Shown one piece after another: positions 42,053 through 49,440 of a stretch of DNA of 51,360 bases. A model generated the notes under the pieces. The model had not been told where the DNA came from and did not search any database. It saw nothing but the letters and a program-made list of their open reading frames with translations. The DNA is from Pseudofrankia coriaricola. Its GTDB lineage: Bacteria > Actinomycetota > Actinomycetes > Frankiales > Frankiaceae. The stretch spans positions 1-51,360 of the forward strand of contig NZ_MBLO01000034.1 in the NCBI RefSeq assembly GCF_001854805.1, in the 5' to 3' direction. The position numbers and the translations under genes were made by a program. Each line of letters begins with the position of its first letter. Position 1 is the stretch's first letter.

Positions 42053-42227
42053 GCCGTCCGGGCGGCTTTCCACCCCTCCCGCCCCTCGCGCTGGTCGGCA
42101 GCCTCGCCCTGGGGTCGCGCGGACGACTCCCATGGCCGGCGCCGGTCTGTAGGCTTCGCGTGCTGGTCAGCCCGATCTGACCTGTTGCGTGCGGGTGGCG
42201 GGGATAGGGCGGGATCGCGGGGGTGTC

Positions 42228-43043
<816 letters not shown>

Positions 43044-43186
43044 GACGGGGGCGCGGGGCGGCTCCGGGCTGGTGCCGGCGCGGTGCCGGCGCGGGCCGTC
43101 ACCGGGTGAGCGTCCGAGTCCGTAGGCTGGACCCCTGTACATCGCCTCGACGACGAGACGTCAGTGTGGTTAAGGAGCAGGGTCCC

Positions 43187-44572
43187 GTGGCAGGCACATC
43201 CGACCTGATGGACACCATCGTCAGTCTCTGCAAGCGGCGGGGACTCGTGTTCCCGTCGAGCGAGATCTACGGCGGTCTGCGTGCGTCCTGGGACTACGGG
43301 CCCCTCGGTGTCGAGCTGAAGAACAACGTCAAGCGCGCCTGGTGGAAGGCGGTCGTGCAGGGCCGCGAGGACGTCGTCGGCCTCGACTCGTGCGTCATCC
43401 TCGCGCGCGAGGTGTGGGAGACCTCCGGTCACGTCGAGGTCTTCACCGACCCGCTGACCGAGTGCACGAACTGCCACAAGCGCTACCGCGCCGACCACCT
43501 CGAGGAGGCGTTCGAGGCCAAGCACGGCCGCAAGCCGGCCGGCCTGTCCGAGGTCGTCTGCTCGAACTGCGGCACCCGTGGCAAGTTCACCGAGCCGAAG
43601 ATGTTCAACGGCCTGCTCAAGACCTTCCTCGGCCCGGTCGAGGACGCCTCCGGCCTCGCCTACCTGCGCCCCGAGACCGCGCAGGGCATCTTCATCAACT
43701 ACGCCAACGTCCAGTCGACGGCGCGGCGCAAACCGCCGTTCGGCATCGGGCAGATCGGCAAGTCGTTCCGCAACGAGATCACCCCGGGCAACTTCATCTT
43801 CCGGACCCGCGAGTTCGAGCAGATGGAGATGGAGTTCTTCGTGCCGCCGGGCGAGGACGAGACCTGGCACGAGTACTGGATCACCGAGCGGACCAAGTGG
43901 TACACCGAGCACGGCATGAAGCCGGACAACATCCGCCACTTCGAGCACGCGCGGGAGAAACTCGCCCACTACGCGAAGCGCACCGTCGACATCGAGTACC
44001 GGTTCAACTTCGCCGGCCTGGAGTGGGGTGAGCTGGAGGGCATCGCGAACCGCACCGACTTCGACCTGACCTCGCACGCGAAGGCCTCCGGCGCGGAGCT
44101 GTCCTACTTCGACCAGGCCACCGGCGTCCGCTACACCCCGTACGTCATCGAGCCGGCGGCCGGCGTCGACCGGGCCACGCTCGCCTTCCTGCTGGACGCC
44201 TACGACGAGGACGAGGCGCCGAACACGAAGGGCGGCGTCGACCGGCGCATCGTGCTGCGCCTCGACCCGCGGCTGGCCCCGGTGAAGGTCGCGGTGCTGC
44301 CGCTGTCCCGCCACGCCGACCTGTCGCCGATCGCCCGGGACCTCGCCGCCCAGCTGCGCCGGCACTGGAACGTCGAGTACGACGACTCGCAGGCCATCGG
44401 ACGCCGCTACCGCCGCCAGGACGAGATCGGCACGCCGTACTGCGTCACCGTCGACTTCGACACGCTGACCGATGAGGCGGTGACGGTCCGCGAGCGTGAC
44501 TCGATGGCCCAGCAGCGCGTCTCCCTCGACAAGGTCGTCACCTACCTGAACGCCCAGCTCGGCCCGATCTAG
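43187..44572 (+). CDS. glyS: Glycyl-tRNA synthetase (single-chain class II)
   Basis: The 461-residue alpha2-type glycyl-tRNA synthetase charges tRNA-Gly. Class II motifs: motif 2 [20 protein letters not shown] and motif 3 near [15 protein letters not shown]; the anticodon-binding domain (about 365-455) has [15 protein letters not shown]. Family blocks [17 protein letters not shown] and [13 protein letters not shown] are intact. GTG 43187 follows AAGGAG. No T-box leader was found in the short upstream gap. Confidence 0.97.
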
Positions 44573-44796: not shown

Positions 44797-45549
44797 TCAT
44801 CCCGCCGAGCCGGGCGGAAAGGGCCTTGTCTCAGCGGCGTCGGCGCCGGGTGCTGGTGCTGGCGCGGGCCGGTCGGGGATCTCGAGGGCGTTCGGGCCGA
44901 ACCGGTCGGCCAGGAAGCGTTCGTGGGCGAGCAGGCGGCTTGCCTCGCCGTTGCTCGCGTCCTCGGTGACCTCGCGGACGGCCCGCTCCAGCAGCGCGAG
45001 CTGGTCGAGCAGCACCTGCCGCGGCGTGCGTCCGTCGGGCAGGTGGTGTGTGCCGGCGAAGGTCCGCGGCAGGCCCAGGTAGGTGTTCAGCGCGGTCGGC
45101 AGGTAGTCGTCCACGAGCCGCTCGACGAGGTCGGCCTCCTGCGAGCCCCCGCGCAGCAGCTCCGGCCGGTCGAACAGCTCGTCGAGCGCGCCGGTGACCC
45201 GCTCGGTCGCGCGGATCACCTCCGTCGGGGCCCGGCCGATGAGCGAGCTGCGGTGTGCCCGGGCCGCCGCCCGCAGCCGTTCGACATCCACCCCGTCGTC
45301 GTCCTCGCCGAGGCCGCCCAGGGCACCGGGGCCGCTCGCGGCCCGGCGGGGGAACGCCAGCGCGCCCGCCCCGTAGAGCGCCGCGACGCCGAACGGCCAC
45401 CAGGGCGCGGGGACGACCCCGACGACCCCGAGCACGACGCCGCCCAGCGCGCCGACGCACCCGAGGATGTTGCGGCCGGATCCGAGCCAGCCCATGGGGC
45501 CCCGGCCGGCGGCCCGGCGGTCCCGGTCGCGGTCCCTACTGGTAGCCAC
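44797..45549 (-). CDS. XpaC-like membrane protein
   Basis: The 250-residue protein has two close membrane helices (about 28-45 and 48-66: ILGCVGALGGVVLGVVGVVP, WWPFGVAALYGAGALAF) and a helical cytoplasmic part. In it, LVERLVDDYLPTALNTYLGL and LLDQLALLERAVREVTEDAS then GEASRLLAHERFLADRFG resemble XpaC (5-bromo-4-chloroindolyl phosphate hydrolysis-type proteins), partners of TelA in tellurite-resistance gene sets. The family match is moderate. Its GTG start lies 14 bp inside the end of the SBP-VWA gene, so it is the third gene of a tight operon. Confidence 0.6.
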   Translation of the reverse strand: MATSRDRDRDRRAAGRGPMGWLGSGRNILGCVGALGGVVLGVVGVVPAPWWPFGVAALYGAGALAFPRRAASGPGALGGLGEDDDGVDVERLRAAARAHRSSLIGRAPTEVIRATERVTGALDELFDRPELLRGGSQEADLVERLVDDYLPTALNTYLGLPRTFAGTHHLPDGRTPRQVLLDQLALLERAVREVTEDASNGEASRLLAHERFLADRFGPNALEIPDRPAPAPAPGADAAETRPFPPGSAG

Positions 45550-47203
45550 GGATCTCCCGGAATACGTCGGAGAGGGACACGCCCGGCGCGGTGGCGTCGA
45601 AGACCGCGCCGCCGGTGCTGGTGGCGATGGCGGTGAGCGCCTCGCGGTCCGCCTCGCCGAAGACGACCGCGAACGTGCGCACGGCGCGGGCTGTGGACGG
45701 CCGTGCGTCGTAACGGGAGGTGAACTCGTCGGCGTCGAGACCGCTGTTGGTCTCGCCGTCGGTCATCAGCACGATCGACGTCAGCGCGTTCGGGTCGTCC
45801 TTCATCGCCTGCGCCGCCTTGTCGTACGCGGCGTCGAGGGCGCTGTAGACGGCGGTGTTGCCATTGGCCCGTAGCGCCCCGGCGAAGTCGGTGATGGCGC
45901 GCAGGTCCGGCGAGCCGGGTCTGGGGTCGGTGATGGTGAAGTCGCGGGTGCCGGTCACCTTGCTGCTGAACGTGATCATGGTGACGTGCTCCCGGCCGCG
46001 GAACCGGGCGAACCGGCCGGCGAGGCTGTCGTCCGCCCCGGTCAGCCCGACGAGCGCCTGCTGGAGCGCGGCCAGCCGGGTGCCCTCCATGGAGCCCGAC
46101 ACGTCCAGTACGTAGATGGCGTGCGTGGGGCGCCGGTACTCGTCGAAGTAGGCGGCGAGCAGCTGGTCGGCGACCTGCTGGGTGGCCGGGAACGGCAGCT
46201 CGATCGGCGTGCCGGTGCCGAAGCGGGCGTCCAGCGGGACGCCGGGGACGGCGGGCCGGCGGCTGGTGTCGTTCTGGATGCGGCGCTGGGCCTCGGGGGA
46301 GCGCAGCCAGGTGACGACGCGGGTGTACTCGTCGCGCCGGTTGTCGGCGAGCAGCGCCATCGGGTAGTCGGCCGTGATGACGCCGTCGTGGGGGCGGATG
46401 ATCGTGATCGGGCCGGCGGCGCCGGAGCGTTGCAGGGTGAGCAGCACCGACTCGTAGTTGATCATCGCGCCGACGCTGGCGGCGGGGGCCTTGACGAAGG
46501 CGTCGGTCAGCCAGCCGGAGCTGCCGGCGGTGAGCACCTGGCCGGAGAAGAAGCTCTTGAGCGGGGCCGCCTTGATGTCGGAGGCCTGCAGCGCGTCGCC
46601 GGTGCCGGCGAACGCCGCCGCCACCCCGACGAGCGCGGAGAAACCGGAGTTGGAGGCCGCCGGGTTGGTCATGGCGTAGGTGAGCTGGCCGGAGGAGACC
46701 TTCGCGGCGATGTCACCCCAGGTGACCTGCGCGTCGCCCGTCCAGCCGAACTCCTGCGCGAGCGGCGTCCGCACGCCGAGGACTACCGGGGAGAGCATCA
46801 CCGGGGTGCGGACCAGTTCCTTGGCCGCGCCGCCGGGCAGGAGGCGCAGGTAGCGGTCGGAGGAGAACCACGCGGCGTCCGCGTCCGCGGTGCCGTGGAG
46901 GATCTTGTCCGCGCCGTCGAGGGTGCCGGTGTAGCTCAGCGTGACGCTGATGCCCGTCGCCGTCTTCAGGTCGGGCAGCAGCGGTTCGAGGTCCTTCAGC
47001 TCGGAACCAGCGAGGATGCGCAACGTTCCCGGCTTGCTGGGCGGCGGGGGCGACGAGGTGCTGGTGTCCGGGCCGCCCGAGCCGCCGTCGGTACAGCCGA
47101 CGAGCAGCGTGACCGCCGTGACGAGCGCTCCGAGCGCGCCAAGCGCGCCGCCCGACCGCCGCTGCCGGCCGCGCCGGGACTCCGAGGTGATTCCGCGGCT
47201 CAT
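45536..47203 (-). CDS. Lipoprotein: solute-binding domain fused to von Willebrand A domain
   Basis: The 555-residue lipoprotein (lipobox LLVGC, lipid on Cys37) has a periplasmic-binding fold of type 2 (about 55-340; LRILAGSELKDLEPLLPDLK, TYAMTNPAASNSGFSALVG, VITADYPMALLADNRRDEYT) followed by a VWA domain (about 358-552) with an intact MIDAS: DVSGSM, TMITFSS, LMTDGETNSG. The VWA domain binds a divalent metal and a protein ligand. The combination suggests an extracytoplasmic sensor or complex organiser rather than an ABC importer, since no permease or ATPase is nearby. ATG 47203 overlaps the stop of the upstream gene (ATGA). Confidence 0.85.
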   Translation of the reverse strand: MSRGITSESRRGRQRRSGGALGALGALVTAVTLLVGCTDGGSGGPDTSTSSPPPPSKPGTLRILAGSELKDLEPLLPDLKTATGISVTLSYTGTLDGADKILHGTADADAAWFSSDRYLRLLPGGAAKELVRTPVMLSPVVLGVRTPLAQEFGWTGDAQVTWGDIAAKVSSGQLTYAMTNPAASNSGFSALVGVAAAFAGTGDALQASDIKAAPLKSFFSGQVLTAGSSGWLTDAFVKAPAASVGAMINYESVLLTLQRSGAAGPITIIRPHDGVITADYPMALLADNRRDEYTRVVTWLRSPEAQRRIQNDTSRRPAVPGVPLDARFGTGTPIELPFPATQQVADQLLAAYFDEYRRPTHAIYVLDVSGSMEGTRLAALQQALVGLTGADDSLAGRFARFRGREHVTMITFSSKVTGTRDFTITDPRPGSPDLRAITDFAGALRANGNTAVYSALDAAYDKAAQAMKDDPNALTSIVLMTDGETNSGLDADEFTSRYDARPSTARAVRTFAVVFGEADREALTAIATSTGGAVFDATAPGVSLSDVFREIRGYQ

Positions 47204-48315
47204 CCGTAGGCCTCGTCGATCTTCTTGATCATCAATTCGGAGATCTTCTGGATGGGCGGCTCGACGACATTGGCCAGTTGCGGCGGCGGCGCGACGCCGC
47301 CGTCGCCCGAGTTGCCGGCTGGCTGGGTGGCGTTGGAGGTGCGGAAGCCGTTGTGAACGGCGAGCCGCTGCAGCTCCGGGTCGGTGGCCAGCAGCTTCGC
47401 GACGGCGTCGCCCTTGTCGTTCAGGGGGACCGCGGTGTGCTTCGCGTAGATCGTCGGGCTCGGGTACACCAGCACTCGGCCGTCCTTGATCGAGCCGTCG
47501 CCCGCGATCTGGCGCGCTCGGAACTGCGACTCGTAGATCATGACCATCGGCGTCTTGGTGATCCCGATCGACAGGTAGTCGTTGAACGGCCCCTCCGTGG
47601 ACGGGTCCGTGAAGCCCTGATGGGTGAACAACTTGGCAAGCTTGGGACCCAGCTTCTCCGCCGTCTCCGAGTCGCTCACGACCTGGTTGCCGTTCTCGAC
47701 GTAGGAGGCAATCGCCAGGTAGACGGCCGCCGAGTTCGAGGTGCGGACGTCCGTCGACTTGATGAGCACCGACCCAGAGTTCTGGTAGTCAGGGTTGTCC
47801 TTGAGCTGCGACCAGCGTTTGTCCGCGGCGACCAGGTCGAGGTAGCCGCGCATGTCGAAGTAGGAGACGTTTCCGTCGGCCTTGATGACCCCCTCGGCGG
47901 TGAGGGGCTTCACGATCTTCGTGAAGGTCGCGATCGCGATCGGCGTGAAGAACAGCACGTACTGCGGGCGGGTGATCGCCTTGTCGTGCTTGATCTGGTC
48001 GGCCTGCGGGGAGTTCGACGGGAGCGCGATGTCGTAGTCGTCCAACGTGCGCGAGACGATCTCGCGTGAGCCCGCAGTGTCGACCCGCAGCCGGTACCCA
48101 AGCTCCTCGAGGCGCTTGGTGACGTCCGGGTCGGTGAGGTAGGCCTGTGTCTCCGAGCCGGCCAGGATGCGGATGTCGGTGAGCTTGCCGCCCTGCCCGC
48201 CGCCGTCGTTGCCGCCGGTGAGCCGGGGGATGACCGCGAGCCCCACCACTCCGAACACCAGCAGCACGGCGAGGATCGGACCTACGACGCGGCCGCTGCC
48301 GCGACCAGTGGCCAC
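47200..48315 (-). CDS. Membrane-anchored solute-binding-like protein
   Basis: The 371-residue protein has one N-terminal membrane anchor (about 12-31; GPILAVLLVFGVVGLAVIPR, no lipobox Cys) and an extracytoplasmic binding-protein fold of type 2 related in sequence to the first half of the next gene: TDIRILAGSETQAYLTDPDV, YDIALPSNSPQADQ, STDVRTSNSAAVYLAIASYV, PMVMIYESQF and VLVYPSPTIYAKHT. The two proteins share the opening LRILAGSE, hinting at duplication. GTG 48315 follows GGAGG. First gene of the operon with the SBP-VWA and XpaC-like genes. Confidence 0.8.
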   Translation of the reverse strand: MATGRGSGRVVGPILAVLLVFGVVGLAVIPRLTGGNDGGGQGGKLTDIRILAGSETQAYLTDPDVTKRLEELGYRLRVDTAGSREIVSRTLDDYDIALPSNSPQADQIKHDKAITRPQYVLFFTPIAIATFTKIVKPLTAEGVIKADGNVSYFDMRGYLDLVAADKRWSQLKDNPDYQNSGSVLIKSTDVRTSNSAAVYLAIASYVENGNQVVSDSETAEKLGPKLAKLFTHQGFTDPSTEGPFNDYLSIGITKTPMVMIYESQFRARQIAGDGSIKDGRVLVYPSPTIYAKHTAVPLNDKGDAVAKLLATDPELQRLAVHNGFRTSNATQPAGNSGDGGVAPPPQLANVVEPPIQKISELMIKKIDEAYG

Positions 48316-48672
48316 CTGCCGGCCTCCTCTGTTGTCTGCGTGTCGGGTCCTCGCGGCGGATCGCCCCGTAGGACCGTTTCGCGGCGCATCGTGGCAAACA
48401 TCGGGCCGCCGCGCATGTCACGGGGGCGACTGCCGATGGCCTTGTCATGTGATGTTCATCTTCGGTTCAGTGGATCACCCGGCTGGCGGGAGCCGTCCCG
48501 CCGGGGCCCACTTCCGGGCGCGATCACGCCTGTCCCTGGGCGTGATCCGCGGCGGACGGGGAATGCAGAGCAGCATGGACCATCCGGACGCGAGGCACAG
48601 TCGCGGGCTGAGCGGGTGTCCCACGCAAAGCGGTGTAAGTCCGGCCGATAGGGTCTGCGGCGGAGGAGTCCA
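48316..48672. other. 357-bp divergent promoter region
   Basis: Separates the SBP/VWA/XpaC operon (minus) from the YdcF-like gene (plus). Sequence at 48640-48660 (GTAAGTCC...GATAGGGT) is weakly promoter-like. No operator or coding sequence was identified. Confidence 0.35.
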
Positions 48673-49440
48673 GTGATCCGAACCCTTGGCCGCCGCGCGA
48701 TGGGCAGGATGCCGGCCGCGAGCGCCGAGCCGCCCACGGCCCCGGTGCCGGCCACGCCAGCACCGGCGTCCACCCCGCGCCGCCGGCCGGGTCTGCTGCG
48801 CGGGCTGCGCGCGCCCTGGTGGCTGTGGCTGGCGCGTGGTGTGCTCGCTCTCCTGGCCGGGGTGATCGTTTTCGCCCTGGTCACGATCGGGCAGGTGTGG
48901 TGGGTCGGCAGCCAGGACCACCGGCCCCGTTCGGACGCCCTGGTCGTGCTCGGTGCGTCGCAGTACAACGGCCGGCCGTCGGCGGTCTTCGCGGCCCGGC
49001 TCGACCATGCCGCCGAGCTCTACCGCGCGGGCGTCGCCCCACTGGTGATCACCGTGGGAGGGCGGATCCCAGGTGACCCGTTCTCCGAGGCTGGCGTCGG
49101 CGCGTCCTACCTCGTCAAGCAGGGCGTACCAGCCTCGGCGGTACTGGCGGTGCCGGAGGGACGGGACACCCTCCAGTCGCTGGTCGCCGTCGCGGGGGAG
49201 ATGAACACGCGGTCACTGCGCAGCGCGGTGGTCGTCACCGATCGGTGGCACTGCCTGCGCTCGGTGGCCATGGCCCGCGACCTGGGCCTGAAGGCGACCA
49301 CCTCGCCGACCCGGACTGGTCCGGCGAACCGGGGGTGGGACACCCAGGCCCGCTACATCGTGCGGGAGGCGATCGGATACCGCTTCTACCAGCTGTTTCA
49401 CCGCGCAACCCCGTCCGGCGCCAGCCACCCCGCCGTCTAG
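48673..49440 (+). CDS. YdcF/DUF218 family membrane-anchored protein
   Basis: The 255-residue protein has an N-terminal disordered part, one membrane helix (about 52-73; WLARGVLALLAGVIVFALVT) and an extracytoplasmic DUF218 domain: DALVVLGASQYNGRPSAVFA, ARLDHAAELYRAGVAPLVIT, EGRDTLQSLVAVAGEMNTRS and VTDRWHCLRSVAMARDLGLK. Members are linked to envelope polymer or vancomycin-sensitivity functions; the reaction is unproven. GTG 48673 has GGAGGAG at ideal spacing. Confidence 0.85.
   Translation: MIRTLGRRAMGRMPAASAEPPTAPVPATPAPASTPRRRPGLLRGLRAPWWLWLARGVLALLAGVIVFALVTIGQVWWVGSQDHRPRSDALVVLGASQYNGRPSAVFAARLDHAAELYRAGVAPLVITVGGRIPGDPFSEAGVGASYLVKQGVPASAVLAVPEGRDTLQSLVAVAGEMNTRSLRSAVVVTDRWHCLRSVAMARDLGLKATTSPTRTGPANRGWDTQARYIVREAIGYRFYQLFHRATPSGASHPAV

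Follow-up and report, generated by a model that had tools for sequence, protein, structure and literature searches.

It has long been asked how trouble is signalled to TelA and the Ter proteins. TelA, XpaC-like partners and VWA proteins are already known from stress systems, and among the closest described arrangements are the XpaC-TelA operons of Bacillus subtilis and Lactococcus lactis, in which TelA stands with a small partner and is linked to envelope stress (PMC3498285, PMC3139573, PMC12791056). In B. subtilis, xpaC-yaaN belongs to the sigma-W regulon (PMC3498285). Overproduction of membrane proteins induces the XpaC-like/TelA pair of L. lactis, which has been studied together with the CesSR regulon, and deleting the pair causes a partial growth defect under the same load (PMC3139573); for Listeria, a mutant with a disrupted TelA is cited as being more sensitive to nisin (PMC12791056). 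The portions of these papers drawn on here name neither binding proteins nor a VWA lipoprotein in such operons. Here, we describe a three-gene operon in a stretch of 51,360 nucleotides from Pseudofrankia coriaricola (contig NZ_MBLO01000034.1, positions 1 to 51,360; hereafter the window), which encodes a membrane-anchored binding protein (g1), a lipoprotein combining a binding-protein domain with a VWA domain (g2) and a protein with a membrane segment and a helical region (g3). Our literature search recognised no paper on a TelA cassette with two binding proteins; the main comparative paper on Ter and TelA may describe part of it.

By sequence comparison, the three window genes are a shortened form of a TelA cassette found across several phyla. 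Peptide patterns from g2 were scanned against 84,980 species genomes and returned 34 loci, three in Frankiaceae, none of which has telA next to g2, and 31 elsewhere. In 30 of the 31 non-Frankiaceae loci g2 is immediately preceded by telA, and in the remaining one, L017 (Deinococcales), the contig begins just before g2. These 30 loci, many of them metagenome-assembled, fall by record titles and tree labels into six phyla (Actinomycetota, Chloroflexota, Dormiibacterota, Pseudomonadota, Thermodesulfobacteriota and Vulcanimicrobiota). The common order is g1-telA-g2-g3, with telA between g1 and g2 in most relatives. In the window, g1, g2 and g3 are adjacent, on the same strand and in the same order, and telA is absent from between g1 and g2; the window g2 has the cassette-type ending IR[GA]YQ-stop and keeps its metal ion-dependent adhesion site (MIDAS). 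The g2 orthologue of a Variovorax plasmid bears the NCBI name 'substrate-binding and VWA domain-containing protein', which is a product name only, and on its upstream side a small hypothetical gene separates it from the gene for a 'toxic anion resistance protein'. In L042 (a plasmid of Variovorax sp. SRS16), the cassette sits between flotillin/OB-fold genes and Wadjet anti-phage genes.

The initial annotation had described a three-gene operon on the minus strand, and the open reading frames (ORFs) lie where it placed them (Table 1), with the ATGA that couples g1 to g2 (a 4-nt overlap) and the 14-nt overlap of g2 and g3 both as claimed. A 14-nt overlap recurs in Deinococcus, Dormibacter, Nonomuraea, Sphaerotilus and other cassettes. 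Pairwise ratios of nonsynonymous to synonymous substitution (dN/dS) are below 1 for g1, g2 and g3 in every computable pair (10 of 15 cassette pairs, five being uncomputable owing to N bases), and those for g2 come from two pairs of relatives, neither of which includes the window. A tree of g2, from which lone binding-protein/VWA fusions (SBP-VWA proteins) and rows under 400 residues were left out, gives six changes in telA as an upper figure: L087 is drawn without telA though PF05816 finds a divergent TelA there, and L017, drawn likewise, was excluded from the final change count since its contig leaves no room for telA before g2. The genome G128 has a second g1-g2 pair without telA, and its single TelA lies in the first cassette. 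Candidates for further conserved partners were discarded, the recurrent matches being read as antisense ORFs or as mainly Variovorax-like synteny (aldehyde-dehydrogenase-like and ABC ATP-binding ORFs among them).

We searched 35 Frankiaceae genomes for the cassette and for TelA. Beside a gene that we take to be glyS, G421 and G422 carry g1-telA-g2-g3, and G418 carries telA-g2-g3 up to the contig end. In the window's genus, the seven loci all read g1-g2-g3 without telA, and six of them lie beside glyS; for the seventh (G425), the 2.8-kb flank gives no match to glyS, and the DUF218 neighbour is kept on the other side. A second Frankiaceae genus (G412-G416) also lacks telA in its cassettes, with no glyS in the stretches read. 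Each of the 12 Frankiaceae genomes with a telA-less cassette has exactly one TelA elsewhere. TelA is present in all 16 Frankiaceae cassette genomes as against 10 of the 19 others, a comparison among related genomes that do not form an independent sample.

The window operon contains no TerD, TerB or TelA gene, and TelA and TerD sit on another contig. There, the single TelA match of the genome (PF05816) is followed by g3', which belongs to the g3 family and for which no membrane segment is predicted, and by a 678-residue TerD protein (Pfam E-values 2e-90 for TelA and 3e-40 for TerD); a TerB/Nudix ORF lies about 3 kb upstream of telA. The order telA-g3'-TerD was found in all 15 Frankiaceae loci read, which were assigned by similarity to the window-genome proteins, with Pfam TerD confirmed for the window genome's alone. 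Eight of these loci belong to the 12 telA-less genomes, the TelA surroundings having been read in all of those except G414, G423, G425 and G428. Such operons resemble the TelA-TerD operons of Ter stress systems and occur in the same genome as the cassette; they differ from it in that no g1 or g2 was found in them, and the window operon has no telA. In trees from which ten near-copies and short rows were left out (for TelA and for g3), the TelA of the TerD loci forms one clade (SH-like approximate likelihood-ratio test, SH-aLRT, 99), apart from the cassette TelA. Because the clades are separate, the cassette telA was most likely lost, not moved. TelA would be supplied to the window cassette in trans.

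The association of the cassette with TelA is thus well supported by gene content, gene order, loss, co-occurrence and conserved motifs. A link to TelA, XpaC and TerD systems, which the initial annotation had guessed at, is borne out by telA in nearly all the cassettes of the scan relatives and by the operon that joins the genome's TelA to TerD.

The g2 protein has several conserved features that point to a complex. Five residues (D367, S369, S371, T450 and D482), which we take to be the DxSxS, T and D of a MIDAS, are invariant in a 25-row g2 alignment, so that the complete MIDAS of the earlier description stands. In the same alignment C37 is at least 90% conserved, and it is invariant in another g2 alignment. 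The tail IR[GA]YQ-stop ends 57 of the 62 cassette-type g2 proteins and none of nine lone SBP-VWA proteins; the five exceptions are a contig end, a frameshifted piece, IRGYL, IRGCH and VKGYN. In many loci the coding sequence of this tail runs into that of g3, yet the tail is kept at loci without such an overlap, and for that reason the protein end itself seems constrained. In the divergent cassettes of L087, G099 and G228, with the order g2-XpaC-g1-telA, the tail of g2 reads FRQVKGYN, a variant of FKEIRGYQ. Among 396 actinobacterial genomes, 37 have any SBP-VWA match and only six have the tight kind (460 bits or more). The window genome itself encodes a second, distant SBP-VWA protein (C259:230600-232180, L091) without an IRGYQ tail. 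Profile searches found no TelA, g1 or g3 in its 18-kb locus, nor in the 21-kb locus of a distant Streptomyces member (L044).

The product of the upstream gene is a further copy of the binding domain in g2. Profile-profile comparison (hhalign) aligns g1 with that domain over 263 columns (probability 98%, E 2.6e-13) with AGSE in register, from which we read the shared opening motif as homology. The initial annotation gave this motif as LRILAGSE in both proteins; that is the sequence of g2, and g1 reads IRILAGSE, with seven of eight residues the same and S54 invariant in 26 alignment rows. Its description of g1 as an anchored binding protein holds by the N-terminal segment and by homology to g2, g1 having no significant Pfam or NCBIfam match. 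The solved chains nearest to the g2 binding domain are ModA (1amf, E 0.002) and an ABC solute-binding protein (6lkg, E 0.0021), both of weak significance, and SBP_bac_11 matches 21 of 25 g2 family members at E 0.01 or better, with the window g2 absent from the matches shown. The domain thus resembles ModA-type binding proteins, and it differs from them in being VWA-fused or membrane-anchored and in having no permease in the window operon. A residue-level ligand prediction from ModA was dropped, as the alignment leaves the matching residues unsettled. A simple hydropathy calculation gives one segment in each of the three proteins, that of g2 (19-37) ending at Cys37 (Table 1). Because the segments lie near the N-termini, g1 and g2 are predicted to face outwards, with the C-terminal helical domain of g3 in the cytosol.

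In TelA cassettes, g3 holds the place that XpaC takes elsewhere. Its family has five invariant residues (L150, P151, Y157, Q183 and L184), and a second, weaker hydrophobic stretch was noted by eye only. The membrane segment is predicted in 53 of 55 cassette copies versus none of 17 copies beside TelA without g1 or g2. The window g3 matches no Pfam or NCBIfam family, XpaC included, at E 1 or less; the XpaC profile (PF10112) matches none of 27 family members, and it finds nothing in the window genome at E 10 or less. On this count we set aside the idea that g3 belongs to XpaC in the strict sense; the rejection is weak, since PF10112 has no match in the B. subtilis control at E 0.001. The same limit of sensitivity attaches to the absence of XpaC from all 30 cassette genomes of the scan in which it was searched (L031 lay outside the search). 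Matches between the g3 profile and influenza HA2 (E 0.01-0.1) were taken to be chance.

Co-occurrence with TelA speaks for g3 as a counterpart of XpaC. TelA passes the cut-off in 17 of the 396 actinobacterial genomes, which have XpaC in nine cases (eight over the cut-off), g3 in seven (E 1.2e-7 or better), a weak g3 in one and both in none; six sub-cut-off TelA matches and a g3 match in G236 (E 5e-4) are omitted from this count. The g3 of G307 contains one internal stop, and the weak g3 of G077 was obtained in a local search (E 6.7e-4) and is absent from the genome search. XpaC itself directly follows g2 in G099 and G120, where the order is g2-XpaC-g1-telA (the XpaC of G120 is below the cut-off), and G228 has this order split over two contigs. 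From position and from co-occurrence with TelA, we conclude that g3 stands in XpaC's place; in the window it occupies the slot only, telA being elsewhere. The initial annotation called g3 XpaC-like and named rejection by profile searches as what would speak against it. Such searches do reject it, and the name survives in the sense of a counterpart by position and co-occurrence.

We consider it somewhat probable that the window operon represents the envelope side of a conserved TelA cassette from which telA itself has disappeared, and that it serves as a sensor acting through the VWA protein and g3 on TelA in trans. Outside the membrane, g1 and g2 would pair and bind a small ligand or a molecule released by stress. 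The VWA domain of g2, which depends on metal, would assemble with g3, as would the fixed tail at the g2 C terminus. The cytosolic helical domain of g3 would dock TelA, and TelA would build or release a membrane-protecting assembly beneath the membrane. In the window's genus, the recipient of the signal would be the TelA of the TerD operon, the only TelA found that could receive it once the cassette telA had gone, so that a binding-protein sensor may have merged with the TerD system. Ligand binding on the outer side, MIDAS-dependent assembly, transmission to TelA by way of g3 and recourse to the TelA of the TerD operon are all inferred. The setting of envelope stress is taken from the work on XpaC-TelA operons cited above.

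Several observations weigh against this explanation. The case for TelA supplied in trans comes from co-occurrence in related genomes only. A Deinococcus plasmid carries g1-g2-g3 without telA, its host chromosome lying outside the search. No g3 was found in L190 and L191, two of the eight telA-less loci of the second Frankiaceae genus. The rule that a TelA has either XpaC or g3 as its partner holds by genome, not by gene: neither partner was found adjoining the second TelA of G139 or the C7 TelA of G196, and telA genes on Arthrobacter and Curtobacterium plasmids have no annotated XpaC. The helical domains of g3 and XpaC align with a score of 28.8 (shuffled mean near 12, none of 300 shuffles as high), a weak similarity given controls of 24.3 for TelA and 19.6 for a reversed profile and a probability of 15-24%; common ancestry of the two is possible. 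Finally, genes of ATP-binding cassette (ABC) transporters adjoin some relatives. In the divergent locus L083 (G077), g1 is immediately preceded on its own strand by genes for an ABC ATPase, an NMT1-type binding protein and a BPD permease, and about 330 bp separate the ATPase ORF from that of g1; L018 has genes for an ABC-2 type ATPase and a membrane protein on the same strand, beginning about 90 bp past g3; and on a Vibrio penaeicida plasmid (L225) TelA, VWA and binding-protein genes are clustered with those of an ABC ATPase and a permease.

These transporter genes favour an alternative in which ligand capture by g1 and g2 (of an oxyanion, perhaps) would serve an ABC permease whose gene lies elsewhere in the genome, TelA being accessory, and the nearness of the g2 binding domain to ModA and to an ABC solute-binding protein fits it as well. 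The linkage is irregular, however. Matches to ABC_tran account for three of 104 flanking ORFs around 31 cassettes (104 of 154 listed ORFs were scanned, from crude ORF calls), and a similarity search over 64 cassette loci found same-strand ABC genes within 500 bp only in L018 and L083, where the types of transporter differ (an importer in L083, ABC-2 in L018). Six Variovorax loci have ABC ATP-binding genes 1.5-4.8 kb away on the opposite strand, and the annotated cassette loci L041-L043 have no permease or ATPase in the operon. Along the minus strand of L083 (9900-14371), the ABC permease, NMT1-type binding protein and ATPase run into g1-g2-(weak g3)-telA, much like the Vibrio cluster. That cluster, read in one of six Vibrio plasmids with TelA matches, has TelA, VWA and binding-protein genes side by side as the cassettes do, and differs in that the VWA protein is separate, two genes annotated as binding proteins have OmpA domains, and the ABC ATPase and permease are present. 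Linkage to ABC permeases therefore exists for the wider kind and is not regular, and given L083, L018 and the Vibrio genes a link with transport may hold for that wider kind. The initial annotation had held that the operon is not an importer; this agrees with the window operon, where no permease or ATPase gene occurs among the ORFs, and with the irregular linkage, and it does not extend to L083, L018 or the Vibrio cluster. A standard ABC importer was set aside on these grounds, L083 and L018 excepted, and we regard capture for a distant permease as unlikely.

A second alternative would make the VWA lipoprotein and the binding proteins an assembly or metalation factor, a chaperone for secreted or wall proteins that ties metal delivery to the Ter system. 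The invariant MIDAS positions are compatible with such a role, and so is work on TerC proteins such as MeeF (formerly YceF), which metalate secreted enzymes in B. subtilis (PMC12096827), where yceF and yceH share an operon (PMC3498285). TerC and MoxR-type chaperone families are absent, however, among the 25 of 109 matched flanking families shown, with no search aimed at TerC having been made. We find this role improbable, a little more so than capture for transport.

More doubtful again is the view that in this genus the telA-less cassette does not depend on TelA or is in the course of being lost. The absence of telA in two Frankiaceae genera and the missing g3 of L190 and L191 would fit it, and the TerD operon of the standalone TelA occurs also in cassette-less genomes. 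Moreover, 26 of the 37 SBP-VWA genomes have no TelA over the cut-off, from which it follows that the wider SBP-VWA kind needs no TelA. Against this view stand dN/dS below 1 in the computed pairs and the intact MIDAS, tail and YLP motifs, and not one of the 12 telA-less Frankiaceae cassette genomes is without TelA. An anti-phage defence module is highly improbable: a role for Ter genes against phages has been proposed (PMC7824862) and one Variovorax cassette lies near Wadjet genes, but PADLOC gave no match for the seven proteins scanned and the commonest flanking families shown are housekeeping ones.

The neighbourhood of the operon contains further genes of interest (Table 1). A TerD-domain/Mrr restriction-endonuclease fusion is encoded one gene away from g3 and is possibly a functional neighbour outside the operon. 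In the window's genus, L005/L179, L177, L180 and L181 have homologues comprising both parts close to the cassette, and in L006/L176 the Mrr part was seen at the edge of the stretch; no homologue was found in the stretches read of telA-containing relatives. The gene in between is presumably glyS, a name given on reading the protein. On the other side, a DUF218 gene lies beside the cassette in all seven loci of the genus and may share a promoter region with g1. Upstream of g1, at 48440-48465, ATGAAC-TC followed by GTGAC or ATGAC is conserved above its surroundings in seven genomes. A promoter motif of the extracytoplasmic function (ECF) type was also considered upstream of g1, and the pattern tried is absent in the window.

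Table 1 Features of the operon and its surroundings in the window.
Feature	Position	Strand	Basis or remark
g1, membrane-anchored binding protein, 371 aa	47200..48315	-	ORF; hydrophobic segment 11-29; homology to g2 binding domain
IRILAGSE motif of g1, residues 48-55	48151..48174	-	In register with LRILAGSE of g2
g2, binding-protein/VWA lipoprotein, 555 aa	45536..47203	-	PF00092, E 1.3e-11
Hydrophobic lipoprotein signal of g2, ending Cys37 (LVGC)	47093..47149	-	Hydropathy
Binding-protein domain of g2, about residues 58-345	46169..47032	-	Family profile
VWA domain of g2, Pfam residues 365-546	45566..46111	-	PF00092, E 1.3e-11
C-terminal tail of g2, IRGYQ-stop	45539..45553	-	Last codons overlap g3 start
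14-nt overlap, GYQ-stop of g2 with M-A-T-S of g3	45536..45549	-	
g3, membrane-segment plus helical protein, XpaC counterpart, 250 aa	44797..45549	-	Conserved family; segment 28-46; TelA-partner pattern
Predicted cytosolic helical domain of g3 with YLP motif, residues about 100-217	44899..45252	-	Invariant residues
Presumed glyS (glycyl-tRNA synthetase), convergent neighbour	43142..44572	+	Adjoins g3 in 6/7 genus loci and in G418, G421, G422
TerD-domain/Mrr restriction-endonuclease fusion	42189..43043	+	Mrr_cat 1.7e-33; TerD 24.4 bits (cut-off 25.3)
DUF218 (SanA/ElyC-like) protein, divergent from g1	48673..49440	+	PF02698, 2.5e-28

Taken more broadly, the sensor reading leads to a tentative proposal, which we hold at somewhat below even likelihood: a transmembrane module spanning phyla may give TelA and the Ter system an extracytoplasmic ligand-sensing input, with the two binding domains and the MIDAS-bearing VWA lipoprotein on the outer side, g3 as a new membrane-crossing protein in place of XpaC, and TelA on the inner side, and in the window's genus this module may have been rewired to the TelA of the TerD operon. 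The conserved cassette, in which TelA is linked with two binding proteins and a VWA lipoprotein, is a concrete, testable candidate for such an input. It also brings to light an unnamed protein family, that of g3, which seemingly stands in for XpaC, and the window's genus offers a natural experiment in which the cassette telA appears to have been lost and another TelA remains.

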